Of a stretch of DNA of 22,534 nucleotides, positions 911 through 20,400 are shown in pieces. The notes beneath the pieces are model-generated. The model was not told the DNA's origin and did not search any database. It was given only the letters and a program-made list of their open reading frames with translations. Within the stretch, counting starts at the first letter, position 1; each line of letters starts with the position of its first letter. A program made the translations under genes and the position numbers. Source of the stretch: a virus; IMG/VR virus record IMGVR_UViG_3300025138_011200, positions 1 through 22,534 of that record; one strand, 5' to 3'.

Positions 911-947
911 AAGTTTTACCAAAAAGGCGTGTCCTAGCGCAATATTA

Positions 948-975: not shown

Positions 976-989
976 AAACTAAATAAGTT

Positions 990-4626: not shown

Positions 4627-4634
4627 TTAAAACT

Positions 4635-5511: not shown

Positions 5512-5962
5512 TATAATATCCAAATATTTTGAAAATGTAGGCCATTTTGGTAATAACGCAAAAGAAATAGAAAAAGTTATGAGTGATAGAGAAATTATGA
5601 ATGCCAAAAAAGGTATATCAGCAAAATTAGGTGTACAAGTATTTGAAAAAGAGTACCCTGAATTATCTAAGGAATTTAAAAAAATACAAAAAGAAATGTA
5701 TGAAATGTTTGCTCGTAAACATATGGATTATGGGTTAAATAATATTGCTTTAGGCGGAGATATCGTTAATAACAGCGATGACAAACAATTCTCACTAACT
5801 GGGTTATGTATTAGATTAACTGATAAAATATCACGTTTAAAAAATCTATTAATTAATGGTAGATCATTTGTTGAAGGTGAGGGTATGCAGGATACATTTA
5901 TAGATATTGCCAATTATGGAATAATCGGTCTTTTAGTAGGTCGTGATAAATGGAAAAAATAG
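5504..5962 (+). CDS. DUF1599 / nucleotide-modification-associated domain 1 (Nmad1) protein
   Basis: This is a 152-residue protein from the ATG at 5504; an in-frame TTG at 5483 would add 7 residues, but AGGAC sits well placed for the ATG. Signature blocks are KHMDYG (72-77), FSLTGLCIRLTDKISRLKNL (about 96-115) and DTFIDIANYGIIGLL (from 130), the order typical of the DUF1599 family. Members occur in phages and near nucleotide-modification enzymes, and comparative genomics has linked them to modified DNA bases; a biochemical role is not settled. Its neighbours are replication and nuclease genes. The presence of the sugar cassette downstream makes a DNA-modification link an open possibility. Confidence 0.78.
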   Translation: MGSIISKYFENVGHFGNNAKEIEKVMSDREIMNAKKGISAKLGVQVFEKEYPELSKEFKKIQKEMYEMFARKHMDYGLNNIALGGDIVNNSDDKQFSLTGLCIRLTDKISRLKNLLINGRSFVEGEGMQDTFIDIANYGIIGLLVGRDKWKK

Positions 5963-6938
5963 TTTGGCGAAAAAACTCCCAAAAATAGTAAAGGAAATAA
6001 GAAATAATCCACCTTCACCTGTTAATTATGCATATCAAAAGAATATATCATATTCTCAGATGTCCATATTTAGAGGATGTCCCCATAGGTGGAAACTTCA
6101 GTATAAAGATAAAATTAAACGATTTACATCTTCTATACATACTGTTTTTGGGACTGCTGTTCATGAAGCAATGCAACATTATTTAGATGTAGCATATGAA
6201 AAATCTTTTGCAGCCGCAGATAGAGATATTAACATGGAAGAATATTTCCAAGAAGCATACATAGGTGAATATCAAAAACAATACAAGTCAAACAAATCAG
6301 AACATTTCTCAGATGCATCAGAAATGAGAGAATTTTTTGAAGATGGTGTTGCTATATTAGATTGGTTTAAGAAAAAACGTAGTAGGTATTTTAGTAAAAA
6401 GGGTACATATTTAGTAGGTTGTGAAATACCTATTGTAGTAGCACCAAATAAAATGTTAAATAACGTATTATATATGGGATATCTTGATGTTGTCACATAT
6501 CATGAGGAAACAGAGACGTTTAAAATAATTGACATAAAAACCAGTACTAATGGGTGGAACGACTATGCTAAAAAAGATGAAAATAAACAATTCCAACTAT
6601 TACTTTATAAACAATATTTCTCAGAACAATATGGGATACCCTTAGATAAGATTGAAATTGAATTTTTTATCCTTAAAAGGAAAGTATTAGATCCTGATGA
6701 TGAAAAGCTTATGTCCCCTTATCAAGCTTATAGAGTACAACAGTTTACACCACCAAGTGGTAAAATCAAACTATCAAGAGCAAAAAATGCTATTAATAAT
6801 TTTATCAATGAATGTTTTAATTCAAGTGGAAAAATAAAAGAAGCAGACTATCACAAATCTCCATCTAAATGGAACTGTAATTTCTGTCCTTATAGTAAAG
6901 ATAAAGAATTATGTGGAGCCGGTGAACATTTTTCGTAG
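5943..6938 (+). CDS. PD-(D/E)XK nuclease with Cas4/AddB-like iron-sulfur cysteines
   Basis: This is a 331-residue protein from GTG 5943; TTG 5964, right after the upstream stop and behind GGAAAAAATAG, is an equally plausible start and would remove 7 residues. The opening ISYSQMSIFRGCPHRWKLQY is the RecB/Cas4-type helix with Cys46. GTAVHEAMQ gives the His of motif I (74), GYLDVV the Asp (182), IIDIKTS the Asp197-x-Lys199 catalytic pair, and QFQLLLYKQY the Q-x-x-x-Y helix. The C-terminus has Cys312, Cys315 and Cys324 (CX2CX8C). Together with Cys46 this makes a four-cysteine 'iron staple' as in Cas4 and AddB. It is probably a DNA exonuclease in recombination or repair. No CRISPR elements are near. 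Confidence 0.9.
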   Translation: MINGKNSLAKKLPKIVKEIRNNPPSPVNYAYQKNISYSQMSIFRGCPHRWKLQYKDKIKRFTSSIHTVFGTAVHEAMQHYLDVAYEKSFAAADRDINMEEYFQEAYIGEYQKQYKSNKSEHFSDASEMREFFEDGVAILDWFKKKRSRYFSKKGTYLVGCEIPIVVAPNKMLNNVLYMGYLDVVTYHEETETFKIIDIKTSTNGWNDYAKKDENKQFQLLLYKQYFSEQYGIPLDKIEIEFFILKRKVLDPDDEKLMSPYQAYRVQQFTPPSGKIKLSRAKNAINNFINECFNSSGKIKEADYHKSPSKWNCNFCPYSKDKELCGAGEHFS

Positions 6939-6943
6939 GTTCC

Positions 6944-6973
6944 CATATATGTATATATAATAAATAACGTTTT
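6944..6973 (+). promoter_or_regulatory. AT-rich promoter-like block before the sugar cassette
   Basis: The 49-base gap before the ribbon-helix-helix gene contains CATATATGTATATATAAT and then AAATAACG. Similar CATATA(T/C)(G/T)TATA blocks lie at 399 and 19326. It is the only non-coding gap at the head of the 12-kb cassette, so it is the natural place for its promoter and for binding by the RHH protein encoded next. No experimental support exists in the sequence itself. Confidence 0.35.
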
Positions 6974-6987
6974 AATAAATAGAGATT

Positions 6988-7188
6988 ATGAGTGCAACAA
7001 AAAACCAAACACTAACTAGTGTTAAAGTACAAACACCCCTATTCGAGGAATTTAAAATTGAATGTGTAAAGCGTAAATTTTCATTTCAAAAACTTGCAGA
7101 CCGTGCTCTGTTTTTGTATCTTACAGACGAAGATTTCCGTAAAAAAATTACTAATCAAATTAATCTCGAAATAAAGGACTATGAGTAA
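6988..7188 (+). CDS. Ribbon-helix-helix (Arc/MetJ-type) small DNA-binding protein
   Basis: This 66-residue protein has a short beta-strand (LTSVKVQTPLFEEF), then helix A (FEEFKIECVKRK), a turn (FSFQ) and helix B (KLADRALFLYLTD). That is the classic RHH layout in which dimer strands read the major groove. Length and basic/hydrophobic spacing fit. The gene heads the sugar cassette and overlaps the first glycosyltransferase by 8 bases, so it may regulate its own operon. Small RHH-like proteins of this sort occur in T4-like phages. The family call is by fold pattern; the DNA target is unknown. Confidence 0.72.
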   Translation: MSATKNQTLTSVKVQTPLFEEFKIECVKRKFSFQKLADRALFLYLTDEDFRKKITNQINLEIKDYE

Positions 7189-8629
7189 GAAATTTAAATA
7201 CATCCCTAAGGATAAAAGAAAAAAAATACTTTTAATTTGTGATGATATTAGAGTACATTCTGGAGTAGCCACGGTTGCTAAAGAAATTGTAGTTCACACA
7301 TCAAATCATTTTAATTGGAGTCAAATAGCAGGTGCTATAAAACACCCAGAAAAGGGTAAAGTACTTGATTTATCTAGTGAAACCAATAAAATGGCCGGAA
7401 TTGATGATACTTATGTTAAATTATTCCCAGTAGATGGTTATGGTAATGAACAAATTTTAAGGGATATTATCAAGGTTGAAAAACCAGATGCTATAATGTT
7501 ATTTACAGACCCAAGGTATTTTGATTTTGTCTTTAGAATGGAAGCTGAAATTAGAAAAACATGCCCCATTATTTATCTTAACATTTGGGATGATTTACCA
7601 GCCCCAATGTATAATAGTGCTTTTTATGAAGCTTGTGATCTTTTATTAGGTATTTCAAAACAAACTGTAAACATTAATAAGTTAGTTTTAAAAGATAAAG
7701 AAAAAAATAGATTATTTAGGTATTTACCTCATGGTAAAAATGAAAATATATACTATCCCTTAACACAAGAAGAAAAATCAACTAAAGAATTTAAAGATTT
7801 TAAAAAGAGTTTATTCAAAAATAAAACCCCTAAATTTATTTCTTTCTTTAACTCTCGAAACATTAGAAGAAAACAAATTCCTGATACCCTATTGGCATTT
7901 AGAGAATTTTTATATTCTCTTCCTAAAGAAGAAGCTAAAGACTGTTATCTAGTATTACATACCGAAGCAGTAACTGATCATGGTACTGATTTATATAAAG
8001 TAAGAGAATTTTTGTTTGGTGAAGATTTTGAGGACCAAATTATATTCTCCCATCAAAAATATGATGATAAAGTATTAAATTGGTTATATAATATAGCAGA
8101 TATCCAAATTCTAATTACTTCTAATGAAGGATGGGGATTAACATTAACAGAAGCTATACTATCAGGAACACCTATTATTGCTAACACAACAGGTGGAATG
8201 CAAGATCAAATGAGATTTGTGGATAATAACGGAGAATGGTTTACACCTGATGCTAATGTTCCTTCAAACCATAGAGGCACTTATAAAGAACATGGTGAAT
8301 GGGCTTTTCCAGTATATCCAGCTTCAAGATCAATTCAAGGTTCTCCTCCAACTCCTTATATATTTGACGATAGATGTAAGTGGGAAGATGTTACTGAAAG
8401 ATTAAAAGAGGTATATTCTATAGATAAGGATGAACTTAAAGCCCGAGGATTAAAAGGTAGAGAATGGGCTATAGGAAATGAAGCAGGTTTTACTTCAGGA
8501 CATCAAGCTGAAAGATTTGTAAGTGCTGTTAATGAATTATTTGATACTTGGGTACCAAGAGAAAAATATGAAATAGTAAATGCTAATGAATATAAAGGAA
8601 AATTTTTAAACCATAAAATAATTTATTAA
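7181..8629 (+). CDS. Glycosyltransferase, GT-B fold (GT4-like)
   Basis: This 482-residue protein would transfer a sugar from an NDP-sugar to an unknown acceptor, probably in the cytoplasm. The N-terminal Rossmann half starts KKILLICDDIRVHSGVATVA, with the Gly/Ser-rich acceptor-side loop typical of GT4. The C-terminal half has NEGWGLTLTEAILSGTPIIA, whose Glu316-x7-Glu324 is the GT4 donor-binding motif. Then TTGGMQDQM follows, where family members bind the nucleotide. No signal peptide or membrane segment is visible. It is the first and largest enzyme of the cassette; the stop overlaps the next start by one base. Confidence 0.9.
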   Translation: MSKKFKYIPKDKRKKILLICDDIRVHSGVATVAKEIVVHTSNHFNWSQIAGAIKHPEKGKVLDLSSETNKMAGIDDTYVKLFPVDGYGNEQILRDIIKVEKPDAIMLFTDPRYFDFVFRMEAEIRKTCPIIYLNIWDDLPAPMYNSAFYEACDLLLGISKQTVNINKLVLKDKEKNRLFRYLPHGKNENIYYPLTQEEKSTKEFKDFKKSLFKNKTPKFISFFNSRNIRRKQIPDTLLAFREFLYSLPKEEAKDCYLVLHTEAVTDHGTDLYKVREFLFGEDFEDQIIFSHQKYDDKVLNWLYNIADIQILITSNEGWGLTLTEAILSGTPIIANTTGGMQDQMRFVDNNGEWFTPDANVPSNHRGTYKEHGEWAFPVYPASRSIQGSPPTPYIFDDRCKWEDVTERLKEVYSIDKDELKARGLKGREWAIGNEAGFTSGHQAERFVSAVNELFDTWVPREKYEIVNANEYKGKFLNHKIIY

Positions 8630-9903
8630 TGAGTAAACCAAATTTTGTAATAAGCTGCCCTTTTGATACTTATAGTGGTTATGGAGCGCGCTCAAGAGAT
8701 ATAGTAAAAGCTATAATACAATCAGATAAGTATAATGTAAAATTACTACCCCAAAGATGGGGGTCAACATCCTGGGGATTTTGTGAATCACACCCAGAAT
8801 GGGAATTTTTAAATGATTTAAAAATATTAAAAGTAGAATCCAAACCTGACATTTGGATGCAGATAACTATCCCAAATGAATTTCAAGCTGTTGGTAAGTA
8901 TAATATTGGATGTACCGCAGGAATTGAAGCTGATTTATGTAAACCCGAATGGGTTGAAGGATTAAACAGAATGGATAGAAATTTTGTTTCCTCAAAGTTT
9001 ACAAAAGCAATGTTTGAGTCACAGTCTTTTGAAAAAAAATCAAGACAAACAAACCAAGTTATAGGGAATGTTAAATTAGAAAAACCTATGGATGTTGTTT
9101 TTGAAGGTGTAAATCTAGATATTTATAAACCCTTAAAAAATAGCGAATTAAATACCTTTGATTTTACAAATATTAAAGAGTCATTTTGTTATCTATTTGT
9201 AGGACACTGGATGAAGGCAGATTTTGGACATGATAGAAAAAATGTTAGTTTGTTAGTAAAAGCATTTTATGAAACGTTTAAAAATAAGAAAAAACAACCT
9301 GCATTAATATTAAAATCCTCTACAGGTATAGCAGGTTATATGAGTAGAGATGAGATCTTAGATAAAATCAAACATATCAAAAAATCGGTGGATGGTAAAA
9401 AATTACCTAATGTCTATGTATTAAATGGAGAATTTACAGATTCAGAGATGAATGAGTTGTATAATAATCCTAAAGTAAAAGCCATGGTTAGTTTAACTAA
9501 GGGAGAGGGATTTGGTAGACCATTGTTAGAATTTACAACTTCTGGAAAACCTGTTTTAGCTTCTGGTTGGTCAGGTCATACTGATTTTCTACATAAAGAA
9601 TTTTCAACACTTATTCCTGGACAACTTGAATTAGTTCACCCATCAGCTGCTAATAATTGGTTAGTCCCAGAAGCTAAATGGTTTAAACCAGATACTAGAT
9701 ATATTGGTGGTATGTTTAAAGATATATTTGAAAAATACAAAGACTTTTTAAATAATAGTAAAAGACAAAGATATTATACTGAACAAAATTATAGTTGGAA
9801 TCATATGGAAAAATTAGTTAATCAAATTTTAGATGACAATATACCAGAATTCCCTAAAAAAATGGAGTTAAAACTCCCAGAACTAAATATACCTAAATTA
9901 TGA
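8629..9903 (+). CDS. Glycosyltransferase, GT-B fold (GT4-like)
   Basis: This 424-residue protein opens NFVISCPFDTYSGYGARSRD, a Gly-rich first loop as in GT4 enzymes. The donor site is KGEGFGRPLLEFTTSGKPVLA with Glu293-x7-Glu301. A central YLFVGHWMKADFGHDRKNV segment marks the start of the C-terminal Rossmann domain, and ALILKSSTG follows. It is likely to transfer a hexose or deoxyhexose; donor and acceptor cannot be read from sequence. It is different enough from the preceding glycosyltransferase (only the motif regions look alike) that it is not a recent duplicate. It overlaps the next gene by an ATGA junction. Confidence 0.88.
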   Translation: MSKPNFVISCPFDTYSGYGARSRDIVKAIIQSDKYNVKLLPQRWGSTSWGFCESHPEWEFLNDLKILKVESKPDIWMQITIPNEFQAVGKYNIGCTAGIEADLCKPEWVEGLNRMDRNFVSSKFTKAMFESQSFEKKSRQTNQVIGNVKLEKPMDVVFEGVNLDIYKPLKNSELNTFDFTNIKESFCYLFVGHWMKADFGHDRKNVSLLVKAFYETFKNKKKQPALILKSSTGIAGYMSRDEILDKIKHIKKSVDGKKLPNVYVLNGEFTDSEMNELYNNPKVKAMVSLTKGEGFGRPLLEFTTSGKPVLASGWSGHTDFLHKEFSTLIPGQLELVHPSAANNWLVPEAKWFKPDTRYIGGMFKDIFEKYKDFLNNSKRQRYYTEQNYSWNHMEKLVNQILDDNIPEFPKKMELKLPELNIPKL

Positions 9904-10343
9904 AACACGACTCATTAAAAATATGCACCCGATGTGGTTCAGATGCTTGTTATACTCAAGAAGTAACTAAAGACATTAATATTGAAATGTGTTATGGGTG
10001 TGGTTTCCAAAGTAATAGTATTATTAAAAAAGGAAACGACTTCTTTAACCAACAATTTGAAAACCTCCCTGAATTGTATAAAGAATTAATGGATGAAGAA
10101 GAAGAAACAGGTAAAGTATGGATGCCCACTATTATCAATTTAAAAGATAAAGGTATGGTTTTTGCTGATGGGACAGGTAGAGATAATTGGAGATGGGCTG
10201 CTGTTAAGGCAATACCAGTACTTGAAGAAGAATTAGAAAAATATAAGGGAGAAAAACATAGAGCTGATATGTCTACTATAAAACATTACCAAGAACGTGA
10301 ATTTATAGAAGCACTTTCGTATATTGGAGTATTACCAGAATAA
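9900..10343 (+). CDS. Zinc-ribbon protein of unknown function inside the sugar cassette
   Basis: In this 147-residue protein, ICTRCGSDACY and MCYGCGF supply two CxxC knuckles (N-terminal 35 residues), a probable zinc ribbon. The rest is unlike any enzyme I can name: a helical, acidic stretch (LPELYKELMDEEEETGK), then WMPTIINLKDKGMVFADGTG, then NWRWAAVKAIPVLEEELEKYKG and a C-terminal helix. It is short for an enzyme and carries no obvious glycosyltransferase motif. It is coupled to genes on both sides (4-base overlap upstream, 3-base gap downstream), so it is co-expressed with the sugar genes. Its role there is unknown. Confidence 0.72.
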   Translation: MKHDSLKICTRCGSDACYTQEVTKDINIEMCYGCGFQSNSIIKKGNDFFNQQFENLPELYKELMDEEEETGKVWMPTIINLKDKGMVFADGTGRDNWRWAAVKAIPVLEEELEKYKGEKHRADMSTIKHYQEREFIEALSYIGVLPE

Positions 10344-10346
10344 GAT

Positions 10347-11192
10347 ATGAAAATACTAGTTACAGGGGGAGTTGGTTTTATAGGTACAGCTTTAATTAAA
10401 AAGTTACTAAATGAGGGATATAATGTTCATTCATTAGATAACTATGAAGTTGGGTTAAAAGAAAATGAAGTTGAGGGTTGTAATTACCATGTAGGGGATA
10501 TTGAGAATATTCACCTTATGGATAAAGACTTTGACTTAATATTTCATTTAGCTGCATTATCTAGAATTCAACCCTCATTTAACAACCCAACAGAAACCTT
10601 TAGAGTTAATACTATTGGTACTCAAGATGTATGTGAATTCGCTAGATTATCGGGAGCTAAAGTTATATATGCTGGTTCCTCTTCTAGGTGGCATAACCCA
10701 TACCAATCACCTTATGCCGCGTGTAAACACATGGGAGAAGAAGCATGTAAAATGTATAAAAAAACCTATGGAATTAATATTGAAATAGTTAGATTCTATA
10801 ATGTATATGGACCAGGTGAAATATTAGATGGAGATTGGGCTGCTGTAGTAGGTAAATGGAGACGTCAAGTTAAAAATGGTGAACCTATTACTATTGTTGG
10901 TGATGGAGAGCAACGAAGAGATTTTACATATATAGATGACATAATAGAAGGGTTATGGAAGATTGGAGTTAAGGATATTAAACATGAAGATGCTTGGGAA
11001 TTAGGAACGGGTATGAATTATTCTATTAATGAAGTGTATAATTGGTTTAAAGAAAAATTTGGAGTTGAATCCATTACAATACCAGACCAATCTGGTAATT
11101 ATAGAGAAACTATTCGTGAAAATGATGACAGTTTAAGCAAATTAAATTGGAAACCAACTGATCAATTAAAAAATTATATATTAAATTTATGA
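10347..11192 (+). CDS. NAD-dependent nucleotide-sugar epimerase/dehydratase (extended SDR)
   Basis: This 281-residue protein belongs to the UDP-glucose 4-epimerase-like family. The Rossmann motif TGGVGFIG (6-13) binds NAD. The catalytic triad is visible as SSS (111-113) and Tyr123-x3-Lys127 in SPYAACK. RFYNVYGPG and DGEQRRDFTYIDD are C-terminal substrate-binding blocks of the epimerase family. It is shorter than the usual 310-340 residues, mostly at the C-terminus. It probably interconverts or dehydrates a UDP- or other NDP-sugar for the glycosyltransferases beside it. The exact substrate is not predictable. The start is 3 bases after the previous stop, the end overlaps by 4. Confidence 0.88.
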   Translation: MKILVTGGVGFIGTALIKKLLNEGYNVHSLDNYEVGLKENEVEGCNYHVGDIENIHLMDKDFDLIFHLAALSRIQPSFNNPTETFRVNTIGTQDVCEFARLSGAKVIYAGSSSRWHNPYQSPYAACKHMGEEACKMYKKTYGINIEIVRFYNVYGPGEILDGDWAAVVGKWRRQVKNGEPITIVGDGEQRRDFTYIDDIIEGLWKIGVKDIKHEDAWELGTGMNYSINEVYNWFKEKFGVESITIPDQSGNYRETIRENDDSLSKLNWKPTDQLKNYILNL

Positions 11193-11818
11193 AAATAAGT
11201 TATGCCATAACAGTATGTGATGAATTTCTTGAAATACAGAAACTTCTTTCATTATTATTAAACAATAAAAGACAACAAGATGAAATTGTAGTGTTAGTTG
11301 ATTTAAGTAAAAATGAACCTACATCTGAGTTATTAAACTACCTCCATGAATTAAGTTCTGAAGATTATATCAAATTAATTGAAGATAATTTTAAGGGACA
11401 TTTTGCTGATTGGAAAAATTTATTAACTAAATCATGCAATGGGGATTATATATTTCAAATAGATGCAGATGAAACCCCACATAAAGTATTATTAGGCTAT
11501 CTTCCAGAAATATTAGGAAATAACCCAGATAATGAAGTATATTTAGTCCCTAGAGTAAATACAGTAGAAGGATTAACACCAGAACATATTAATAAATGGA
11601 GATGGGAGGTTAACTCAAAAGGGTGGGTTAACTATCCAGACAATCAATGGAGAATTTGGAAAAACAAACCAGAAATTAAATGGGTTAATAAAGTACATGA
11701 AAAATTAGAGGGGTTTAAAACTTATGCCTCTATTCCTCCTACTGAACAATTATCTCTTTATCATCCGAAAACAATTGATCGTCAAGAAAAACAAAATAAT
11801 TATTATAGTACGTTATGA
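11189..11818 (+). CDS. Glycosyltransferase family 2-like protein (GT-A fold)
   Basis: In this 209-residue protein, ISYAITVCDEFLEIQKLL is a GT2-type first strand and helix, EIVVLVDLSKNEPT the second strand, and DYIFQIDADETP carries the DxD metal site (Asp-Ala-Asp). A tryptophan-rich acceptor region (INKWRWEVNSKGWVNYPDNQWRIW) follows, then WVNKVHEKLEGF, a pattern seen in small GT2 proteins. The length fits a minimal GT-A domain. The acceptor is unknown. It overlaps both neighbours by ATGA-type junctions. Confidence 0.83.
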   Translation: MKISYAITVCDEFLEIQKLLSLLLNNKRQQDEIVVLVDLSKNEPTSELLNYLHELSSEDYIKLIEDNFKGHFADWKNLLTKSCNGDYIFQIDADETPHKVLLGYLPEILGNNPDNEVYLVPRVNTVEGLTPEHINKWRWEVNSKGWVNYPDNQWRIWKNKPEIKWVNKVHEKLEGFKTYASIPPTEQLSLYHPKTIDRQEKQNNYYSTL

Positions 11819-12690
11819 AGATATTATATGTAACCAATTATAATAGTATTGCCAGAGCAAGTGGTGGGTTTATAAATGACTACCAAAATGATTTAGTGTT
11901 TTATGGGTTAAGAGAGTTATATGGGGATGATGTAGTTGATTCTACACAAATAATCTCTCTTTATAAAGAATATGAAAATAAAATAAACCCAAGGCATCTT
12001 TGGGGTGGAATGACTACTTTCTGGCTTATAGGAGAAAATAATATTGATAGAACTAATATTGAACAAAAAATTAAGGATAATTATTATGATTTAATTATTT
12101 ATGGTGCTATCCAACGTTGTAAAGACTATTATGAATTAGTTTCACAACATTATTCTGATGATAAAATAATATTGATCGATGGTAATGATGAAACCAATTT
12201 AGATCCTCTATATAAAAAACACTTATATTTTAAACGTGAATTAATAAAAGAACACCCAAATCTAATTCCAATTACATTCGCAATACCAACATCTAAATTA
12301 TCAAAACCTACTAAAAATAAATCACAAAATTATGCTACATGCATACCAGGCCAACCTGAAACTTATATTTTCAAATCAGAACAACCTTACTACGAAGACT
12401 ATCAAAAGTCATATTATGGAGTTACTATGAAAAAAGCAGGTTGGGATTGTATGAGGCATTACGAAATATTAGGTAATTATTGTATGCCTTATTTTACAGA
12501 TTTAGAAGATTGCCCTAAAGATACTTTATCTCAATTCCCTAAAAAATTACTATTAGAAGCTAAGGAATTAGCTAACAATTTTGATAAACAAAAATATTAT
12601 ATTATATTAGACAAAGTTTTTGAACACACAAAACAACATTTAACTACTAAAAGTTTAGCTGAATATGTTATTAAAAAAAGTTATAAATAA
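11815..12690 (+). CDS. Putative glycosyltransferase-like protein (GT-B type, uncertain)
   Basis: This 291-residue protein starts MKILYVTNYNSIARASGGF, a Rossmann-like first strand plus loop. The middle (YDLIIYGAIQRCKDYYELV, then IILIDGNDETNLDPLY) resembles a second Rossmann domain. A later block, SYYGVTMKKAGWDCMRHYEILGNYCMPYF, with 'GWDCMRHYEI..N..MPYF' and FPKKLLLEA, looks like the nucleotide-sugar side of distant CgeB-type glycosyltransferases. No clean E-x7-E or DxD motif is visible. The assignment rests on this block and on being surrounded by glycosyltransferases. The last 26 bases overlap the next gene. Confidence 0.58.
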   Translation: MKILYVTNYNSIARASGGFINDYQNDLVFYGLRELYGDDVVDSTQIISLYKEYENKINPRHLWGGMTTFWLIGENNIDRTNIEQKIKDNYYDLIIYGAIQRCKDYYELVSQHYSDDKIILIDGNDETNLDPLYKKHLYFKRELIKEHPNLIPITFAIPTSKLSKPTKNKSQNYATCIPGQPETYIFKSEQPYYEDYQKSYYGVTMKKAGWDCMRHYEILGNYCMPYFTDLEDCPKDTLSQFPKKLLLEAKELANNFDKQKYYIILDKVFEHTKQHLTTKSLAEYVIKKSYK

Positions 12691-13456
12691 ATCTTATTAT
12701 GGTACCAGTAATTATATTGGTAACTCAAATGATCTTATAAAATTAGAACAACTTATTTTATACAATTTAAAAGTATTAAAAGAGTATAAAGGTATTATAG
12801 TAGCTACTAATTATAAAGACTTAGGTTTAGCCATTAAAAATGCAGAAATATGGTTAAGGCATTTTCCTGATTGTCATATTATTAATTTGAAAGAAAATAG
12901 GGGACATAATTTTGGAACAGCAGATTTAGATAATGCCTTATTTGATTATTGTAAACAAAATAATATAGAATGGTTATGTAAATCCTCAGGTGATATTATT
13001 CTAGAAACAGGAGTTCTTAATAATGAAATTGAAGAGAGTGATTTTTATTACTTGAATGGGGTTGGTTATGGTGGAATGGTAAAATATGATTTTGATTTGG
13101 ATAGAATTATTAAAGAAGATTTCTACCCACAAACTAATTTATATTTTATAAATGTATCTAAAACTGATTATCTAAATGATAAGGATTATATTAATAAAAC
13201 ATATGATACTATTAAAGATGATTTTGAATATAATGGTAAAATTTGGGAGTATTTTAGTGGTTGGAGTTGTGAGGATTTCTTAAAAAATTGTATCATTAGA
13301 AATAACCTTTCCACGTGTCATTTGGTTTCTCCAAAAAATTATCGTATATTATTGGAATATATAAAGGATTCTCAAATCCATGATTGTAGTCATAAAAACA
13401 TAATGATTGAGAATATTTGTCATTTACACAATGGTGTTAACATAATAAAACTTTAA
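12665..13456 (+). CDS. Unknown protein, possible divergent GT-A glycosyltransferase
   Basis: In this 263-residue protein, strand-helix alternation at the start (IIVATNYKDLGLAIKNAE, then CHIINLKENRGHNFGTADL) and the pattern N-R-G-x-N-x-G-x-x-x-L-x-x-A recall GT2-like enzymes. WLCKSSGDIIL stands where a DxD would be, but only one Asp is present. Later YFSGWSCEDFLKNCII could hold an acceptor-binding loop with an acidic residue. It may be a degenerate or metal-independent relative, or an unrelated protein. The ATG at 12665 lies inside the previous gene (26-base overlap); the next in-frame ATGs are far downstream, so this start is preferred. Confidence 0.55.
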   Translation: MLLKKVINKSYYGTSNYIGNSNDLIKLEQLILYNLKVLKEYKGIIVATNYKDLGLAIKNAEIWLRHFPDCHIINLKENRGHNFGTADLDNALFDYCKQNNIEWLCKSSGDIILETGVLNNEIEESDFYYLNGVGYGGMVKYDFDLDRIIKEDFYPQTNLYFINVSKTDYLNDKDYINKTYDTIKDDFEYNGKIWEYFSGWSCEDFLKNCIIRNNLSTCHLVSPKNYRILLEYIKDSQIHDCSHKNIMIENICHLHNGVNIIKL

Positions 13457-13464
13457 AATTAAAT

Positions 13465-14616
13465 ATGAAACAAACAAAGAAAATTTGGTATGCTCCTTAT
13501 AAATTTGAAGCATACGGGCAAGAAGAAATTGATGCCGTTGTAGAATCACTAAAGAGTGGTTGGTTAGGAGGACAAGGTCCTAAATCTATAGAATTTGAAG
13601 AAAAAATAGCTAAAAGGTTTGGTAAAAAATATGGTGTATTTGTTAATTCAGGTTCATCAGCTTGTTTATTAGCTATAGCTGCCTTAGATTTACCTAAAGG
13701 AACAAAAATCATAACTCCATCATGTACGTTTGCTACAACCTTAGCACCTATTATTCAACTAGGGTATGTACCTGTATTTGTTGACGTTGATTTAACCACA
13801 TATTGTGCCAATTTTGACCAAATTATGGACAAAATCACAGACGATACATCAGCACTTATGTTACCTAATTTAATTGGTAATAAACCAGATTGGCCTAGAA
13901 TAAAAAAGGCATTAATTGATATGGGTCGTGAAGATATATATTTAATTGAAGATTCAGCTGATACCTTAACTAAAACACCTGAAACCGATGTTGCAACTAC
14001 TAGTTTTTATGCTTCTCATGTTATAACAGCAGGTGGAGTAGGTGGTATGGTAATGTATAATGATAAAAAACACGTAACTAAATGTTTACAATATCGTGAT
14101 TGGGGTCGTTTAGGTGATGATTCAGAAATAGTAGCAGATAGATTTAACCATGTTGTAGATGGTATTCCTTATGATCATAAATTTTTATATAGTGTATTAG
14201 GATATCATATGAAAGCTAGTGAAATGAATGCTGCCTTTGGAATAGTACAATTAGAAAGATTTAAAACAAATGCTGGAATTAGAAGAGCTAATTTTGAACG
14301 TTATTTGGAAAATTTAAAAGATGTAAAAGAATTAACTTTGCCTGATGATAGCTTACAACCAAATTGGTTAGCAATACCATTACAAACTGAAGATAGATTT
14401 GCTTTATTATCATTTTTAGAAGAAAACAATATTCAAACTCGAGTAACATTTGCTGGTAACGTAACAAGACATCCTGTTTATCGTGAATACTTAGAAGATT
14501 TTGAAAATGCAGATTTGATTATGAAAAATGGATTTTTATTAGGGGCACACCATGGTATGACAATTGAAGACGTAGATATTGTTTGTGATAAAATTAAAGA
14601 ATTTTTTAATAAGTAG
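13465..14616 (+). CDS. DegT/DnrJ/EryC1/StrS-family enzyme with His in place of the PLP lysine (sugar 3-dehydrase-like)
   Basis: This 383-residue, PLP-family fold-I protein has NSGSSA (61-66), the phosphate-binding turn, and IEDSAD with Asp163, which holds the pyridine nitrogen. At the normal Schiff-base lysine position the sequence is SFYASHVITAGGVGG, with His185. His here is the hallmark of the E1/RfbH (CDP-6-deoxyhexulose 3-dehydrase) and ColD (GDP-4-keto-6-deoxymannose 3-dehydratase) branch, which use PMP for C-3 deoxygenation rather than transamination. YRDWGR, PYDHKFLYSVLGYHMKASE and FAGNVTRHP recall RfbH. The RfbH 2Fe-2S cysteine cluster after the YRDWGR block is absent, and the length is near ColD (388). 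It is probably involved in 3,6-dideoxysugar formation; aminotransfer is less likely. Confidence 0.85.
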   Translation: MKQTKKIWYAPYKFEAYGQEEIDAVVESLKSGWLGGQGPKSIEFEEKIAKRFGKKYGVFVNSGSSACLLAIAALDLPKGTKIITPSCTFATTLAPIIQLGYVPVFVDVDLTTYCANFDQIMDKITDDTSALMLPNLIGNKPDWPRIKKALIDMGREDIYLIEDSADTLTKTPETDVATTSFYASHVITAGGVGGMVMYNDKKHVTKCLQYRDWGRLGDDSEIVADRFNHVVDGIPYDHKFLYSVLGYHMKASEMNAAFGIVQLERFKTNAGIRRANFERYLENLKDVKELTLPDDSLQPNWLAIPLQTEDRFALLSFLEENNIQTRVTFAGNVTRHPVYREYLEDFENADLIMKNGFLLGAHHGMTIEDVDIVCDKIKEFFNK

Positions 14617-15300
14617 ATGAAAATAGTTATATTAGGGGATGGTTTATTAGGAACAGAATTAGCAAAACAAACTAATTGGGATATTATTAGTAGAAATTCT
14701 CATGGTCTTAATTTTAAAGATATATCATCTTGGTATCAATATCTAGTTAAATATGATGTAATTATTAATTGTATAGCTAATACTGATTCATATTCTATAG
14801 ATAAAACCCACCACTGGGATATAAATTATAAATCAGTAGTAAGACTATGTAATTGGTGTAATGAATACAATAAAAAATTAGTACACATTTCTACTGAGTT
14901 TGTTTATGCTAATAATGAAAAATTACCTACCGAAGAAGATATACCCTCTCCTGATCATACTTGGTATGCTTATACTAAATTATTAGCAGATGAATACATC
15001 CAATTATGTAATAGTAACTATTTAATTTGTAGAGAATTACATAAACCCAATCCTTTTTCTTATGATAGGGTTTGGAAAGTCCAAACATCAGGGGATACTG
15101 TTGATAAAATATCCAATTTAATAATAAAATTGGTAAATAAAAATGCTAGTGGGGTTTTTAATGTTGGAACTGGGGATAAATGGTTAAAAGAACTTGCCCC
15201 AAAAACAAGTAAAGAAATCCCACCCCCATTCAAAACCCCAACTGATACTAGAATGGATTTAACTAAATTAAATAAATTTTTAAATGAGAATAATATATAG
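14617..15300 (+). CDS. RmlD-like NAD(P)-dependent sugar reductase (extended SDR)
   Basis: This 227-residue protein starts MKIVILGDGLLGTELAKQ with GxGxxG-type spacing (7-12), the RmlD-type nucleotide loop. HISTEFVYANN (90-100) supplies the Ser/Thr and WYAYTK the Tyr117-x3-Lys121 pair. RmlD reduces dTDP-4-keto-L-rhamnose to dTDP-rhamnose. The protein is about 60 residues shorter than standard RmlD, with the C-terminal substrate domain trimmed, so the substrate may differ. It starts directly after the stop of the dehydrase-like gene, and RmlC- and RmlB-like genes lie downstream. Confidence 0.85.
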   Translation: MKIVILGDGLLGTELAKQTNWDIISRNSHGLNFKDISSWYQYLVKYDVIINCIANTDSYSIDKTHHWDINYKSVVRLCNWCNEYNKKLVHISTEFVYANNEKLPTEEDIPSPDHTWYAYTKLLADEYIQLCNSNYLICRELHKPNPFSYDRVWKVQTSGDTVDKISNLIIKLVNKNASGVFNVGTGDKWLKELAPKTSKEIPPPFKTPTDTRMDLTKLNKFLNENNI

Positions 15301-15979
15301 AATATCAGATGTAGGTTATAATAAAGTAAAACCTGATTACATCAACAATGAAAATTGTTTAGCAAATGCTACTAAAGAATTTGACGATTCTATTTGGAGT
15401 GTTATAGCAGATAATGTATCTTCAGATACTAATGATATGATTCAAAAGTACGTAACACGTAATTGTATTTTATATGCTGAAAAAGGAAATGGTGCCGCAA
15501 CTTTTAATATGGCTTTAGATGAAGCTCTAACTTATGATGATGAAGAAATAATATATTTTATAGAAAATGATTACGTACATAAACCAGGATCTCAGAAAAT
15601 ATTAGAAGAAGGATTTAAACTTGGAGCATCCTTTGTAGCATTATATGACCACCCAGATAAGTATATTACACCAGAAGATGGTGGTAATCCTTACTGTCAA
15701 GGTGGAGCTGAAGATACAAGAGTATATTTAACTGATTCTTGCCATTGGAAGATAACTAATAGTACTACTATGACTTTTGCTGCTAAAGTAAAAACACTTA
15801 AAATAGTAGAATCAACACTTAGAGCATATACTACAGGTACCTATCCACAAGATTTTAAAATGTTTTTAGACTTAAGAAAACAAGGACATTTATTAGTAAC
15901 ACCATTACCTGGTTATTCTACACATGGGGAAACTGCATGGTTAACCCCTTTAACTGATTGGGAAAAACATATAAAATGA
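15284..15979 (+). CDS. Probable glycosyltransferase, GT2-like
   Basis: This 231-residue protein lacks a clean GT2 opening but has a probable GT-A core: IIYFIENDYVHKPGS contains an acidic END metal-site candidate, preceded by a long helix (AATFNMALDEALTYDDEE) and followed by GASFVALYDHPDKYI. The central ITNSTTMTFAAKVKTLKIVE and PLPGYSTHGETAWLTPL could form the acceptor loop; the His in STHGE resembles the conserved C-terminal His of small phage glycosyltransferases. The start overlaps the previous gene by 17 bases and the end overlaps the next by ATGA. Confidence in the family is moderate. Confidence 0.65.
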   Translation: MRIIYRISDVGYNKVKPDYINNENCLANATKEFDDSIWSVIADNVSSDTNDMIQKYVTRNCILYAEKGNGAATFNMALDEALTYDDEEIIYFIENDYVHKPGSQKILEEGFKLGASFVALYDHPDKYITPEDGGNPYCQGGAEDTRVYLTDSCHWKITNSTTMTFAAKVKTLKIVESTLRAYTTGTYPQDFKMFLDLRKQGHLLVTPLPGYSTHGETAWLTPLTDWEKHIK

Positions 15980-16740
15980 TAACAGTAGTAATTACAACTT
16001 ATAAAGAACCTAAGGCATTAGACATTTGTTTACAATCTGCTATTGAAGGGCAACTATATGATAATCAAATTATTGTAGTAGTAGATGGTTATTATGATTT
16101 AAATAAAGAGGTATTAGACAAATATAAAGAAAAAATTAATATACTTAATTTAGAAGATAACTTAGGTATGATAAGGGCTATGAATTTAGGTCATTATAAT
16201 GCCCAATATGATTTAGTATTCCATGTTCAAGATGACAATGTATTCCCTTATAATTGGGATAAAAAATTACTAGAACATTATGAAGAGGGGTCAGTTTTAA
16301 CCCCTAATCAAGTTGAACCTAACCCTAGTATGTTTCCTCAATTTAATATAAAGAATTTAGGAACAGACTTAGATAACTTTGATTTATCTTTATTCTGGGA
16401 ACATGATAAGACAATATCAGAAAATAAATATGATGAATGCGGATCTACATTTCCATTTTTAATATCCAAATCTGATTACTTAAAAATAGGAGGGTTTGAT
16501 GAATCATATCCTGGACCTTGGGTTGTTGATTGGGAGTTTTTTATGAAATGTCAAATGAATGGAATGAAAATGATTAGAACTTATAATTGTCATTTTTACC
16601 ATTTTGTATCATTAGGAACTAAATCCCCAGAACAATTAGAAGAAGCAAAACATAAAGAAGGTTTATGCCATAAATTTGCCTCATATAAATGGGGTTCGTA
16701 TATTAAACATAACCCACAAAACAATATAAAATATATTTAA
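15976..16740 (+). CDS. Glycosyltransferase family 2 (GT-A fold)
   Basis: This 254-residue protein starts at ATG 15976, overlapping the preceding stop (ATGA); an upstream in-frame TTG at 15958 is not needed. It starts MITVVITTYKEPKALDICLQ, the classic GT2 opening, then DNQIIVVVDGYYD, DNLGMIRAMNLGHYNA and DLVFHVQDDNVFP, with the acidic DxD-equivalent Gln-Asp-Asp. ISKSDYLKIGGFDES and WVVDWEFFMKC are the typical GT2 'GGFDE..DWE' block that positions the catalytic base. It transfers a sugar to an unknown acceptor and is the clearest GT2 in the cassette. Its stop shares a base with the next start. Confidence 0.92.
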   Translation: MITVVITTYKEPKALDICLQSAIEGQLYDNQIIVVVDGYYDLNKEVLDKYKEKINILNLEDNLGMIRAMNLGHYNAQYDLVFHVQDDNVFPYNWDKKLLEHYEEGSVLTPNQVEPNPSMFPQFNIKNLGTDLDNFDLSLFWEHDKTISENKYDECGSTFPFLISKSDYLKIGGFDESYPGPWVVDWEFFMKCQMNGMKMIRTYNCHFYHFVSLGTKSPEQLEEAKHKEGLCHKFASYKWGSYIKHNPQNNIKYI

Positions 16741-17180
16741 TGGAACAAATAATAGGATTTACAGCTGGTAACTTTGATTTAATACATCCTGGTTATATTT
16801 ACACATTTGAAGAAGCAAAACGTCATTGTGATTACTTTATGGTATTTTTACAACGTGACCCTTCTGAAACTAGGTTTACTAAATACAAACCCGTTATTCC
16901 TTTATATGAAAGGTATAAAACATTAATGGCTATAAAATATGTAGATGAAGTAGTGACATATCAAACTGAAGATGAGTTAATAAAATTAATAGAGTTTTAT
17001 AACCCACATATCAGAATATTAGGTGACGATTATATAGGTAAAAGATTTACAGGTGATTATTTATCCCCAGAAATTATTTATACCACTAGATCTCATGGTT
17101 GGTCAACAACTAAACTAAAAAATATGATTACAAAACAAACAGTACTACAAAACCCAGACGTTATAAATGAAAAAGATTAG
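16740..17180 (+). CDS. Cytidylyltransferase-like nucleotidyltransferase with HPGY instead of HxGH
   Basis: In this 146-residue protein, GNFDLIHPGYIYTFEEAK (10-27) is the HxGH signature of the TagD/RfaE-C nucleotidyltransferases, but the second His is Tyr19. VIPLYERYKTLMAIKYVDEVV matches the family's second block and GWSTTKLK (120-127) the ISTTKI/R nucleotide-binding motif. The family transfers a nucleotide to a sugar phosphate or polyol phosphate (for example CDP-glycerol or ADP-heptose). HxGH histidines normally stabilise the transition state, so loss of one could lower or change activity. It sits with the RmlC/RmlB/Ugd-like genes, in keeping with donor-sugar synthesis. Confidence 0.85.
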   Translation: MEQIIGFTAGNFDLIHPGYIYTFEEAKRHCDYFMVFLQRDPSETRFTKYKPVIPLYERYKTLMAIKYVDEVVTYQTEDELIKLIEFYNPHIRILGDDYIGKRFTGDYLSPEIIYTTRSHGWSTTKLKNMITKQTVLQNPDVINEKD

Positions 17181-17607
17181 TGACCATAGAGGATTATTTT
17201 TTTTAGATAATGAGGTTGACTATGATCAAATATTTATAGCAACTAATGAAGCAAGACATACCTTTAGAGGTATGCATTTTCAATCTAATCCCTATCAAGT
17301 TAAATATTTAACGGTTATACAAGGTGAAGTTTTAGACTTTTTATATAATCTTAAAACTGGAGAAGTAAAAGAATACCAACTAAATCATAATAGTGATACT
17401 CTTGCTATAACTGAAGAATATGCTCATGGTTATTTAACATTAGTACCTAATACTATTATATATTATGGTGTAATAGGAAAATACAATCCTAAAACATATA
17501 AAAGTATTGTATGGGAAACAATTCCAGAGATAAATGCAAGAATAAAGCAAGTTGTAAATAATATTGATAAAATAACAATTTCAGAAAAAGATAAATTAGG
17601 AAAATGA
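17167..17607 (+). CDS. dTDP-4-dehydrorhamnose 3,5-epimerase-like cupin (RmlC)
   Basis: This 146-residue cupin is shorter than typical RmlC (about 180). HTFRGMHFQ (31-39) contains the catalytic His37. VKYLTVIQGEVLDFLYNLK and ITEEYAHGYLTLVPN are the canonical strands with the AHGY block. IIYYGVIGKYNP aligns with the FLYKTTDYY region that carries the catalytic Tyr, and a late ISEKD resembles the family's LSEKD. RmlC epimerises C3 and C5 of dTDP-4-keto-6-deoxyglucose. It overlaps the cytidylyltransferase-like gene by 14 bases and the RmlB-like gene by 4. It is likely an active, trimmed enzyme. Confidence 0.9.
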   Translation: MKKISDHRGLFFLDNEVDYDQIFIATNEARHTFRGMHFQSNPYQVKYLTVIQGEVLDFLYNLKTGEVKEYQLNHNSDTLAITEEYAHGYLTLVPNTIIYYGVIGKYNPKTYKSIVWETIPEINARIKQVVNNIDKITISEKDKLGK

Positions 17608-18491
17608 GAATAATTGTAACAGGTGCATGTGGTTTTATTGGTTCACATTTTGTAAACTTAATTGGTAAAATAGACCCAACAATAGAAATAGTAGTAGTAG
17701 ATAAATTGACTTACGCTTCAAATGTTAATAATTTAAAGGTCCCGGTCAAATTTATCAAAAAGGACATTTGCGACATAACCCATGAGGATTTAGGTGTATA
17801 CGATTATATAGTTAATTTTGCCGCTGAAAGCCATGTAGATAATTCGATTAAGGATGGTAAACCCTTTGTAAGAACAAATGTAGAGGGTACTTTTAATTTA
17901 CTAGAAGTAGCAAGGAAAAACCCAAAATTAAAAAAATTTATTCAAATATCCACTGATGAGGTTTATGGTGATATGGATGAATATGGGGAGGGAACATTAG
18001 CTGATGAATCATTTAATTTAATTGGATCATCCTATTATTCAGCAACAAAGGCGTCATCTGATTTATTAGTACAAGCAGCAGGTAGAACATATGGGTTACC
18101 ATATTTAATTACCCGTACTTGTAATAATTATGGAGAAAACCAACACCAAGAAAAATTATTACCTACAATAATAGATTGTATTAAAAATAACCTTAAAATC
18201 CCAATTTATGGTGATGGTAAAAATATTAGAGAATGGATACATGCTGATGACAATTCACAATTTATATGGGATCTAATCCAGTCAGATAAAACAGGTGTGT
18301 ATAATATAGGATCAGGTGAAAGATATACCAATTTACAAATAATTGAAATCATAGAAAGAATACTTGGATATCAATTAGATTTAAAGTTTGTTCAAGATAG
18401 AAAAGGACATGATCGAGCTTATGGGTTAGCCACAACTTTAATACCAAAACACAATTTAAAAGAATATTTAAAAAATACTTTATGCAAATAG
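17604..18491 (+). CDS. dTDP-glucose 4,6-dehydratase-like (RmlB)
   Basis: This 295-residue extended SDR is somewhat shorter than usual RmlB (about 350). TGACGFIGS (6-14) binds NAD. The RmlB-specific blocks are FAAESHVDNSI (72-82), STDEVYGD with Thr117-Asp118-Glu119, Tyr145-x3-Lys149 in YYSATKAS, RTCNNYGENQHQEKLLP (171-187) and QDRKGHDRAYGLA near the end. The STDEVYG block fits dTDP-glucose 4,6-dehydratases rather than the CDP-glucose type. The product, dTDP-4-keto-6-deoxyglucose, would feed the RmlC/RmlD-like genes. No glucose-1-phosphate thymidylyltransferase (RmlA) is in the window, so dTDP-glucose may come from the host or another part of the genome. Confidence 0.95.
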   Translation: MRIIVTGACGFIGSHFVNLIGKIDPTIEIVVVDKLTYASNVNNLKVPVKFIKKDICDITHEDLGVYDYIVNFAAESHVDNSIKDGKPFVRTNVEGTFNLLEVARKNPKLKKFIQISTDEVYGDMDEYGEGTLADESFNLIGSSYYSATKASSDLLVQAAGRTYGLPYLITRTCNNYGENQHQEKLLPTIIDCIKNNLKIPIYGDGKNIREWIHADDNSQFIWDLIQSDKTGVYNIGSGERYTNLQIIEIIERILGYQLDLKFVQDRKGHDRAYGLATTLIPKHNLKEYLKNTLCK

Positions 18492-19303
18492 GAATTATAG
18501 GCCAGGGGTTTGTTGGTAATGCTGTTTATCAAAAATTTAAAGAATATTATAATGTTTCTACTTATGATTTAGATGATAAAAAATGCAATTCATCAAAAAA
18601 TTCTATCTATGGTTGTGATATTATTTTCTTATGTCTCCCAACACCAATGAATAAAGATGGATCTTGTCATACTGATATTGTAAAGGGAGAGTTAATGAAT
18701 CTTAATATTTTTACTGAAGGGAAAATAATAATAATTAAATCAACAATACCACCTGGGACAACAAAGGAATGGAACGATCATTTTAATAATTTAAGTATTG
18801 TATTTAATCCTGAATTTTTAACTGAAGCAAATGCTGTTAAAGACTACGAAAACCAAACCCGTGTTATATTAGGTGGGCCTAGAAAATCAACTACTAAATT
18901 AAAACCAATATTTAAAAAAGCATTTCCTAATGCAGATATAATCAAAACCGATTCAACTTATGCCGAAATGGTTAAATATACTACTAATTCTTTTTTAGCA
19001 ACTAAAGTATCATTTGCAAATGAAATGTATCAAATATGTGAAGGGTTAGATGTCGATTATGACAAGGTAATTGAATATGCTACATATGATGACAGGTTAG
19101 GTAAATCACATTGGTCAGTACCAGGCCCAGATGGTGATTTTGGTTATGGAGGTCATTGTTTCCCTAAAGATGTTCAAGCATTAATATCGGTTGCTGAAAA
19201 TTTAGGTATATTTCCTGAAATGTTAATTAGTACTAATGAAAAAAATAATGAAATACGTAAAAATAAGGATTGGGAAAAAATGAAAGGAAGAGCAGTAATA
19301 TAG
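18482..19303 (+). CDS. UDP-glucose/GDP-mannose 6-dehydrogenase-like, lacking most of the C-terminal domain
   Basis: In this 273-residue protein, IGIIGQGFVGNAV (GxGxxG at 7-12) is the NAD site. NPEFLTEA (109-116), VKYTTNSFLATKVSFANE (Lys165, Asn169) and GYGGHCFPKD with Cys226 are the catalytic blocks of the family. The enzyme oxidises C6 of an NDP-hexose twice to a uronic acid. It ends shortly after the central domain, some 110-170 residues short of typical family members, so the UDP-binding C-terminal domain is missing. Either a compact phage form still works, as a dimer with sites made from the remaining parts, or it is impaired. It is the last gene of the cassette; the start overlaps RmlB by 10 bases. 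Confidence 0.9.
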   Translation: MQIGIIGQGFVGNAVYQKFKEYYNVSTYDLDDKKCNSSKNSIYGCDIIFLCLPTPMNKDGSCHTDIVKGELMNLNIFTEGKIIIIKSTIPPGTTKEWNDHFNNLSIVFNPEFLTEANAVKDYENQTRVILGGPRKSTTKLKPIFKKAFPNADIIKTDSTYAEMVKYTTNSFLATKVSFANEMYQICEGLDVDYDKVIEYATYDDRLGKSHWSVPGPDGDFGYGGHCFPKDVQALISVAENLGIFPEMLISTNEKNNEIRKNKDWEKMKGRAVI

Positions 19304-19334
19304 TTGGTTATTTAACCATCCTTTCATATATTTA
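19304..19334 (+). promoter_or_regulatory. Bacteroidota-like promoter before small-gene block
   Basis: TTGG at 19304, 19 bases, then TATATTTA (19327-19334) fits the -33 TTTG / N19-20 / -7 TAnnTTTG pattern. The -7 box sits in CATATATTTATATG, which resembles the blocks at 399 and 6944. The next gene's ATG is at 19367. It would be the start of a separate unit after the cassette. Confidence 0.4.
19305..19318 (+). terminator. Short inverted repeat after the sugar cassette
   Basis: TGGTTATTTAACCA can fold into a small hairpin directly after the dehydrogenase stop, followed by TCCTTTC rather than a long T-run. It might slow or end transcription, but it also overlaps a promoter-like layout, so a terminator role is uncertain. 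Confidence 0.33.
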
Positions 19335-19366
19335 TATGTTAGTAATAATAAAGTAATAAAATAGTA

Positions 19367-19528: not shown

Positions 19529-19786
19529 ATGAATATAACAATGATTCCTTGTATTAAGTGCAAAAAAGACATGCCTGAGCTAAGATTAACCCAATACGGA
19601 TATAAAGTATGTGTTAACTGTTCTAGTGTAAGCACTAAACGGGGTATCCCTGTAACTAAAGGTTCAGGTGATCATACTTGGACCGAAACAGTAATAGTAG
19701 AAGAAGATCAATATGAATCATTTGTAAATGCCACTAATAAAGAAAGAGGTAGTAGTGATAGTGTTGTAACTTTTAAATTAGATTAA
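19529..19786 (+). CDS. Small zinc-ribbon protein, function unknown
   Basis: In this 85-residue protein, PCIKCKKDMPELRLTQYGYK is followed by VCVNCS, giving two CxxC pairs separated by about 17 residues with an aromatic/Gly/Tyr turn. This is a compact zinc ribbon like those of DksA/TraR-like and transcription-factor-like proteins. The C-terminal half (GSGDHTWTETVIVEEDQYES) is acidic and has no recognised fold. It might bind nucleic acid or RNA polymerase, by analogy only. Its stop shares a base with the next start (TAATG), so it is co-translated with the HNH-like gene. Confidence 0.75.
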   Translation: MNITMIPCIKCKKDMPELRLTQYGYKVCVNCSSVSTKRGIPVTKGSGDHTWTETVIVEEDQYESFVNATNKERGSSDSVVTFKLD

Positions 19787-20400
19787 TGCCAGCAGCAAAA
19801 CCACTTTCTAAAGCACAAATAGTAGCATCCCAAGCTAAGACTCAGTCTAATATGGCTGCTGCTAGGTATTTACACGTTTCATATCAACATTATAAAAGAT
19901 ATGCTAAATTGTATAAACTATTTGCTGGGCATAAAAATCAAAGTGGTAAAGGTATACCTAAGTTTTTAAACAATGGTAAGAAATTTCCTGCTATGGTTGA
20001 AATTATTGAAGGTAGAATAGCTGCCTCATCTTTTGACCCTAACAAATTAAAATATGCTTTAATAGAACAAGGACATATGGTTGAGGAATGTACCGTATGT
20101 AAATTTAATGAACGTAGGGTATTAGATTATAGGATTCCATTATTATTACATTTTAAAGATAAAAATAGCAATAACTATAGTTTAGATAATGTACAGTTAC
20201 TTTGTTATAATCATTATTTTCTTACTGTGGGGGATGTATTTAATGCTAAAGAGGAAAAACAAATTGAAACACAACAGGAACATAATGGTACAACTGAACA
20301 GGTTAATTGGGAAGTAGATGATTATCATTTACAACGTTTAAAAGAATTGGGTTTAGATGGGGATGATGATGATGTGGATCAATATATAAGTAGAGTATAA
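19786..20400 (+). CDS. HNH-like zinc-finger protein with N-terminal helix-turn-helix
   Basis: This 204-residue protein has a basic, helical N-terminal part (VASQAKTQSNMAAARYLHVS then YQHYKRYAKLYK), which looks like a DNA-binding helix-turn-helix. The core has CTVC (102-105), PLLLHFKDKNSNNYSLDNVQ and LLCYNHYFL, following the HNH layout H..N..N..H around a zinc site: Cys102, Cys105, Cys140, His143. The usual HH pair is reduced to His122-Phe, and the last CxxC is a CxxH. The C-terminus is acidic (GLDGDDDDVDQY). Catalysis is doubtful; a DNA-binding or degenerate homing-type nuclease role is possible. It follows the zinc-ribbon gene at a 1-base overlap. Confidence 0.72.
   Translation: MPAAKPLSKAQIVASQAKTQSNMAAARYLHVSYQHYKRYAKLYKLFAGHKNQSGKGIPKFLNNGKKFPAMVEIIEGRIAASSFDPNKLKYALIEQGHMVEECTVCKFNERRVLDYRIPLLLHFKDKNSNNYSLDNVQLLCYNHYFLTVGDVFNAKEEKQIETQQEHNGTTEQVNWEVDDYHLQRLKELGLDGDDDDVDQYISRV

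Follow-up and report, generated by a model that had tools for sequence, protein, structure and literature searches.

A swappable glycan-synthesis island with an invariant core at a fixed locus of uncultured T4-like marine phages

What do phages make with long operons of sugar genes, on which acceptor is the product placed, and how does the content of such operons vary between close relatives? These questions are raised by a virus fragment of IMG/VR (IMGVR_UViG_3300025138_011200; 22,534 bases, the whole of which is called here the window), which is part of the genome of an uncultured T4-like phage and carries a glycan-synthesis island. All its features given below with first and last positions lie on the + strand. 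A sequence-only reading of this DNA had described a packed cassette of 15 glycan-synthesis genes; this is borne out, with the small correction that there are 16 open reading frames (ORFs) when the lead gene is counted. The main feature of the locus was overlooked by that reading: the island is swapped among phages that are otherwise similar.

The island is composed of an invariant core plus an open variable set at a fixed site. The search for the same block in related phages, which the earlier reading had proposed, consisted of four scans of viral contigs and gave 51 contigs with both borders, corresponding to 40 distinct islands at the equivalent locus. The left border is a PD-(D/E)XK exonuclease gene (5943-6938; PF12705), whose product is conserved at 85-98% amino acid identity in 80 contigs; the right border is formed by genes for a small protein, which aligns with the 'DnaK suppressor' of Flavobacterium phage immuto, and for an HNH endonuclease-like protein (19529-20400). 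The core occupies a fixed position on the left and includes the glycosyltransferases GT4a (7181-8629; PF00534), found in 39 of the 40 islands, the remaining one being cut at a contig end, and GT4b (8629-9903; PF00534), a protein of 147 amino acids (9900-10343), these last two in 40/40, and the glycosyltransferase GT2a (11189-11818; PF00535), in 38/40 by clustering. The accessory families, on the other hand, have reached 97 at 40 islands and rise linearly without a plateau; of the 102 protein clusters found in total, 63 are singletons. The islands are 98% coding and 451 of their 454 ORFs lie on the + strand. Between GT4a and the border they measure from 5.0 kb in the near-complete genome G001, a minimal island of six ORFs (core and two further ORFs), to 22.7 kb in G002, with up to 26 ORFs per island; the "very large investment" previously seen in the cassette is therefore unexceptional in size within the lineage.

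The equivalent locus has an identical gene order in the annotated genome of immuto (vB_FspM_immuto_2-6A; Immutovirus, NC_055915; laboratory host LMO8), which is the only cultured phage giving a full-length GT4a alignment above 50%. Immuto has the PD-(D/E)XK nuclease, a small lead gene, GT4a (51%), GT4b, the 147-residue protein, GT2a and variable genes, followed by a DksA-like protein and HNH at the right border (43% and 46% identical, respectively, to those of G006, the closest long relative of the window), with GroES and GroEL upstream; the operon spans 48985-59988. Its accessory part is unlike that of the window, with DegT-type genes present and RmlB, Ugd and the HldE-RmlC-RmlB trio missing. 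The immuto proteins are about 45-66% identical, so that this phage represents another genus-level lineage.

Pairwise comparisons of islands carry the signature of an exchange by recombination in the conserved flanks, similar to that of serotype loci. Contig L108+L167 has flanks nearly identical to those of the window (95.8% in the exonuclease and 99.8% in HNH at the nucleotide level), whereas inside the island nucleotide homology is detectable only for GT4a, GT4b, the gene at 9900, GT2a and the DegT gene (72-76%), the core transferases being about 74% identical; its island contains Gmd, a GT2-GT10 fusion, an acetyltransferase and other genes. In contig L037+L166, flanks 88% and 92% identical to those of the window enclose genes for NeuB, a CMP-sugar synthetase, a UDP-GlcNAc 2-epimerase and a sialyltransferase of GT29, a family known mostly in eukaryotes (L166:1583-7024, contig IMGVR_UViG_3300001589_007344). 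L003 is the converse case, as its nuclease is just 82.7% identical to that of the window while most of its island genes are 94-99% identical. Moreover, L008 and L062 have 96% identical flanks and an accessory Jaccard index of 0.11, and over the islands accessory content follows the core transferases (Spearman 0.58-0.59) more closely than it follows the nuclease (0.32).

In the window, the 15 co-directional ORFs extend from 7181 to 19303, mostly overlapping or touching, and are bounded by the end of the nuclease gene at 6938 and by the gap before 19529. Decay of the cassette, a possibility already raised by the sequence-only reading, is ruled out by Ka/Ks values of 0.04-0.40 for each of its genes, calculated against G006 (71-90% nucleotide identity across the island genes) and L003; the cassette is under purifying selection and functional-looking. 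When the cassette was compared with phage records at the nucleotide level, the result was one match of 40 bp and nothing else.

Families were assigned with Pfam and NCBIfam profiles, which recognize as donor-sugar enzymes RmlB, an RmlC-like cupin, an RmlD-like protein, an epimerase, a DegT-family enzyme closest to RfbH, a nucleotidyltransferase and Ugd. The proposal of at least five glycosyltransferases holds in that four are recognized by Pfam, GT4a, GT4b, GT2a and a second GT2-family protein (15958-16740; PF00535; 24/40 islands), and a fifth by its fold (15284-15979; 22/40 islands); the latter has a GT-A fold and a conserved ENDYxH motif, and its best solved matches are human LH3 and many sugar-nucleotide enzymes. 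Two further accessory proteins, GT-B-like (11815-12690) and GT-A-like (12665-13456; 6/40 islands), look like transferases by eye and have no significant family match. The best solved relative of GT4a is the chlorovirus glycosyltransferase B736L, a weak and general GT-B match, and one GT2 protein has a weak GtrB-like match. The 147-residue protein occurs in phages only; its predicted fold is confident, and the fold search returned no solved relative and a single homologue, from an uncultured phage. Two subfamilies exist, one having a zinc-ribbon-like N-terminus with four cysteines and the other having lost part of them. The conserved lead gene (6988-7188; 66 amino acids) had been read as a ribbon-helix-helix gene and may encode such a regulator, but this could not be confirmed, because RHH_10 was matched by 2 of 26 orthologues at E about 0.02 (0.023) and no ribbon-helix-helix protein was among its PDB matches.

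The accessory enzymes suggest which sugars would be made. The DegT-family PLP enzyme at 13465-14616 appears to be a 3-dehydrase of the ColD/RfbH type and not of the iron-sulfur E1 type: in an alignment with the E1 entry 3bcx, His185 occupies the position of the Schiff-base lysine of aminotransferases, all 11 phage copies having this histidine, and the iron-sulfur cysteines of E1 (RDWGR-CxC region) are absent, as they are in ColD. With this dehydrase as a single protein no relative was found in 85,000 genomes, while an alignment-based scan retrieved 287. Its partner is a short RmlD-like SDR reductase (14617-15300; PF04321), which in 11 of 12 islands is encoded no more than two genes further on, and the pair would likely produce a 3,6-dideoxyhexose; the nucleotide carrier is uncertain, because RmlB accompanies the dehydrase in six islands and is lacking in the other six. 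An SDR nucleotide-sugar epimerase/dehydratase (10347-11192; PF01370) is present in 8/40 islands. A trio formed by an HldE-domain-II/TagD-type nucleotidyltransferase (16740-17180), an RmlC-like cupin (17167-17607) and RmlB, the dTDP-glucose 4,6-dehydratase (17604-18491), is complete in six of the eight islands with any member. RmlA is absent, and dTDP-glucose would therefore be supplied by the host. Finally, Ugd (18482-19303) lacks the C-terminal UDP-binding domain; this short form (272-279 amino acids) is found in all 28 islands having Ugd, yet the catalytic cysteine motif GGxCFPKD is kept in 26 of these 28. The product of Ugd would be UDP-glucuronate. As a separate observation, L128, L099, L149 and L158 encode an HldE-like nucleotidyltransferase outside the island as well, upstream of hsp20 and the other chaperone genes; this copy is distant (46-48%).

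Where does the glycan go? With moderate confidence we read the island as a serotype-like, swappable glycan locus whose product is built late in the cytoplasm on a virion protein. The constant soluble set of GT4a, GT4b, GT2a and the 147-residue protein would build a common core glycan, and the exchangeable downstream genes would make unusual donor sugars and attach them as tips; in the window these would depend on RmlB, the RmlC-like protein, the ColD-like dehydrase with its RmlD-like reductase, Ugd, the nucleotidyltransferase and the further transferases. Assembled in the cytoplasm late in infection, the glycan would form a coat that varies from one phage lineage to another, and recombination in the conserved flanks would exchange islands as a whole among phages. 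The earlier reading had left DNA, virion and host surface on a par as destinations of the glycan; its view of the locus as a phage-encoded glycan operon stands, and the evidence now leans towards a virion protein and away from the usual DNA route and a self-contained surface pathway. Membrane genes, DNA genes and timing, taken together, favour an acceptor that is available in the cytoplasm late in infection, for which a virion protein is an example; sugar identity, acceptor, timing in the window phage and advantage are what we infer.

As regards membrane genes, the 454 island ORFs include no multi-pass protein: two hydrophobic stretches are the most that any product has, and the 22 that have one or two are mostly soluble enzymes. 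The islands therefore encode neither a flippase or polymerase nor a membrane protein for seroconversion. Ligases, transporters and GtrA/GtrC-like membrane proteins were likewise not found in the 40 islands, and proteins of such kinds are absent from the 25 commonest Pfam families.

The timing is suggested by promoter-like elements. Upstream of the lead gene the window has ATATGTATA (6947-6955), and directly downstream of the island it has the late-type element TATTTATA (19329-19336). Of 101 distinct relatives, 93 have the pattern ATA[CT][GT]TATA ahead of the lead gene, and in 16 it takes the exact late-class form ATATTTATA. In two long or complete relatives TATTTATA is found upstream of structural genes more often than of other genes (15/24 against 5/59 in immuto; 11/24 against 2/66 in G001), and in both it also stands upstream of the glycan operon, which was left out when the motif was defined. 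A second type of leader (CGTATATTC...GTATA...AATAAAGGTT), upstream of 990, 21117 and 21642 in the window and of many small ORFs of G001, looks like an early promoter class.

Several points weigh against a late virion glycan. The acceptor is deduced indirectly, and the island sits in the replication/chaperone region and not beside virion genes. The ATATGTATA element of the window is one base off the late consensus, and with a late-promoter matrix no site of the window scored above the shuffled background, so that the late-promoter claim rests on the relatives. There the test has a circular element, as the structural genes on which it was run had also served to derive the motif. A surface target can also be conceived without membrane genes, since peripheral soluble enzymes can act on the lipopolysaccharide (LPS) core or on lipid-linked sugars of the host. 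As to the exchange, some contigs with the same flanks and different islands could be assembly chimaeras, but the pattern is seen repeatedly, in many samples, and for immuto the sequence is that of an isolate.

The alternative that survives best, which we consider possible and on balance unlikely, is that during infection the island serves to alter the surface of the host (LPS core, O-chain or capsule precursors), for example to block the adsorption of competitors or to free the progeny from receptors. This is how the comparable genes of pelagimyophages have been interpreted (PMC7029224) and, as a review summarizes, the genes of Immutovirus as well (PMC11500664). Bacteria make their surface polysaccharides with the same donor enzymes, and a Flavobacteriales metagenome-assembled genome (MAG) contains the nearest cellular dehydrase-reductase pair (73% and 53%), adjoining a glycosyltransferase-like ORF. 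Against it stand the lack of export and GtrA/GtrC-like proteins described above and the late-type element of immuto and G001, as a lytic cycle would leave late changes of the surface hardly any time to take effect.

A glycan on the phage DNA, as a hypermodified base protecting from host nucleases and possibly carried on 7-deazaguanine, seems improbable. The locus does lie within a replication/nuclease region, a DNA glycan that varies could be a way past restriction systems that vary as well, and 7-deazaguanine DNA-modification genes are widespread in the lineage: G001 has QueC, QueD, QueE, FolE and a DpdA-like gene (L224-L231), and QueC is found in 9 of 10 large relatives. However, 7-deazaguanine is already protective, and G001 (138.7 kb, near-complete) lacks both a DNA C5-methylase and PF00303, the thymidylate synthase/dCMP hydroxymethylase family, for which the control was positive; PF00303 is present in G008 and immuto, as a match that leaves the type open, and the genome of the window is incomplete. 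A search for Tet/JBP dioxygenases in 10 records gave no match, with the controls likewise silent. Furthermore, a dozen or more sugar genes, including sialyl- and fucosyltransferase types, exceed any DNA glycosylation of which we are aware. The DNA of immuto reportedly contains 7-deazaguanine derivatives, which is a lead and not a test. Beside DpdA, a QueF gene and a formyltransferase-like gene are found in G002 and immuto, and both are missing in G001.

Least probable of all is an ordinary pool of host-derived auxiliary metabolic genes that act on diverse targets and share no function, since, frequent as host-like sugar genes are in phages and singletons among the accessory families, the location and order are fixed, the core is invariant, the genes are strictly co-directional, sub-pathways co-occur and all genes are under purifying selection.

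The island can be compared with several known systems. In chloroviruses the capsid is glycosylated by the virus's own enzymes and, as in the island, these are cytoplasmic glycosyltransferases and nucleotide-sugar enzymes (PMC4691112). Chloroviruses differ in being eukaryotic algal viruses with unrelated genomes, and their virion glycan is demonstrated whereas the island is known from its genes. To our knowledge, chlorovirus glycosylation genes are not grouped in one swappable cassette. Mycobacteriophages have few transferases for virion glycosylation and are not known to have a large donor-sugar pathway. Phage-encoded glycosyltransferases place glycans on their capsid and tail tube, according to Freeman et al. 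(2023) as cited in PMC12619734. Pelagimyophages and cyanomyophages, which are T4-like marine phages too, have a hypervariable, glycosyltransferase-rich 'host recognition cluster' with some donor-sugar genes (rfaE, Ugd), read as modifying host LPS; it lies among the structural genes, with VrlC and gp14 on its two sides, and includes the tail fibres (PMC7029224). The island described here is instead flanked by the nuclease and HNH, has no tail genes, and is outside the structural regions in immuto and G001. For Immutovirus, the review mentions putative nucleotide-modification genes and genes for the glycosylation of bacterial surface components (PMC11500664). Bacterial O-antigen and capsule serotype loci resemble the island in their conserved flanks, exchangeable centre and donor-sugar operons with transferases; the island is virus-borne and lacks Wzx/Wzy, an ABC exporter or a ligase. 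It also lacks the GtrA flippase and the membrane GtrC of phage seroconversion gtrABC, and G001, unlike phages with T4-type DNA glucosylation, has no dCMP hydroxymethylase family to supply the base hydroxyl. Large phages of Phapecoctavirus (phAPEC8/ESCO-type) encode RmlB, the dTDP-glucose 4,6-dehydratase (42% identity); the rV5 paper leaves sugar genes unmentioned. Relative to prior work, and within the range of our tools, what is new is the definition of the borders, the combination of an invariant core with an open variable set, and the exchange of cassettes, in a large uncultured lineage and outside the tail-fibre region.

The host of the window phage is likely a member of Flavobacteriia, because of the relatedness to immuto, which also gives the best GroEL match (59%), and of the dehydrase-reductase pair of the Flavobacteriales MAG. 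The lineage consists of lytic, T4-related marine phages probably infecting Flavobacteria. We tentatively suggest, while judging it somewhat more likely wrong than right, that they form a large uncultured clade of marine Bacteroidota phages with glycan serotypes, in which a conserved core oligosaccharide of the virion bears tips (dideoxyhexose, fucose-like, sialic-acid-like) swapped via the conserved flanking genes. Surface antigens of the virus would then reassort independently of tail-fibre genes. If the glycan is on the virion, a common marine phage lineage varies its coat by cassette swap, as bacteria do their O-antigens, and the reason why lytic phages spend 5-23 kb on sugars (shielding from binding proteins, defences or grazers; adhesion) becomes testable. 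The series from six to 26 ORFs is natural material for assigning core and tip enzymes, and soluble enzymes for sialyl, fucosyl and dideoxysugar chemistry can be drawn from the islands.

The conserved backbone upstream of the island comprises a chaperone block of Hsp20, a small ORF, GroES and GroEL (494-3211; PHROGs matches, kept in relatives) and the T4-type sliding-clamp loader (3700-5290), with its large (3700-4626) and small (4877-5290) subunits (phrog_168 and phrog_225), about 36-39% identical to those of T4-like phages. L108, L046, L155 and other contigs have inserts of about 0.7-0.8 kb at two sites of this backbone, between the 5483-type and exonuclease genes or between the 4635-type and clamp-loader genes, which are possibly homing endonucleases. 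The junction from nuclease to glycosyltransferase recurs in a cyanobacterial T4-like phage, Microcystis phage Mel-JY01 (PP395634.1 82271-89690), with a GuaB-like gene in between, and this recurrence suggests that the island site is old.

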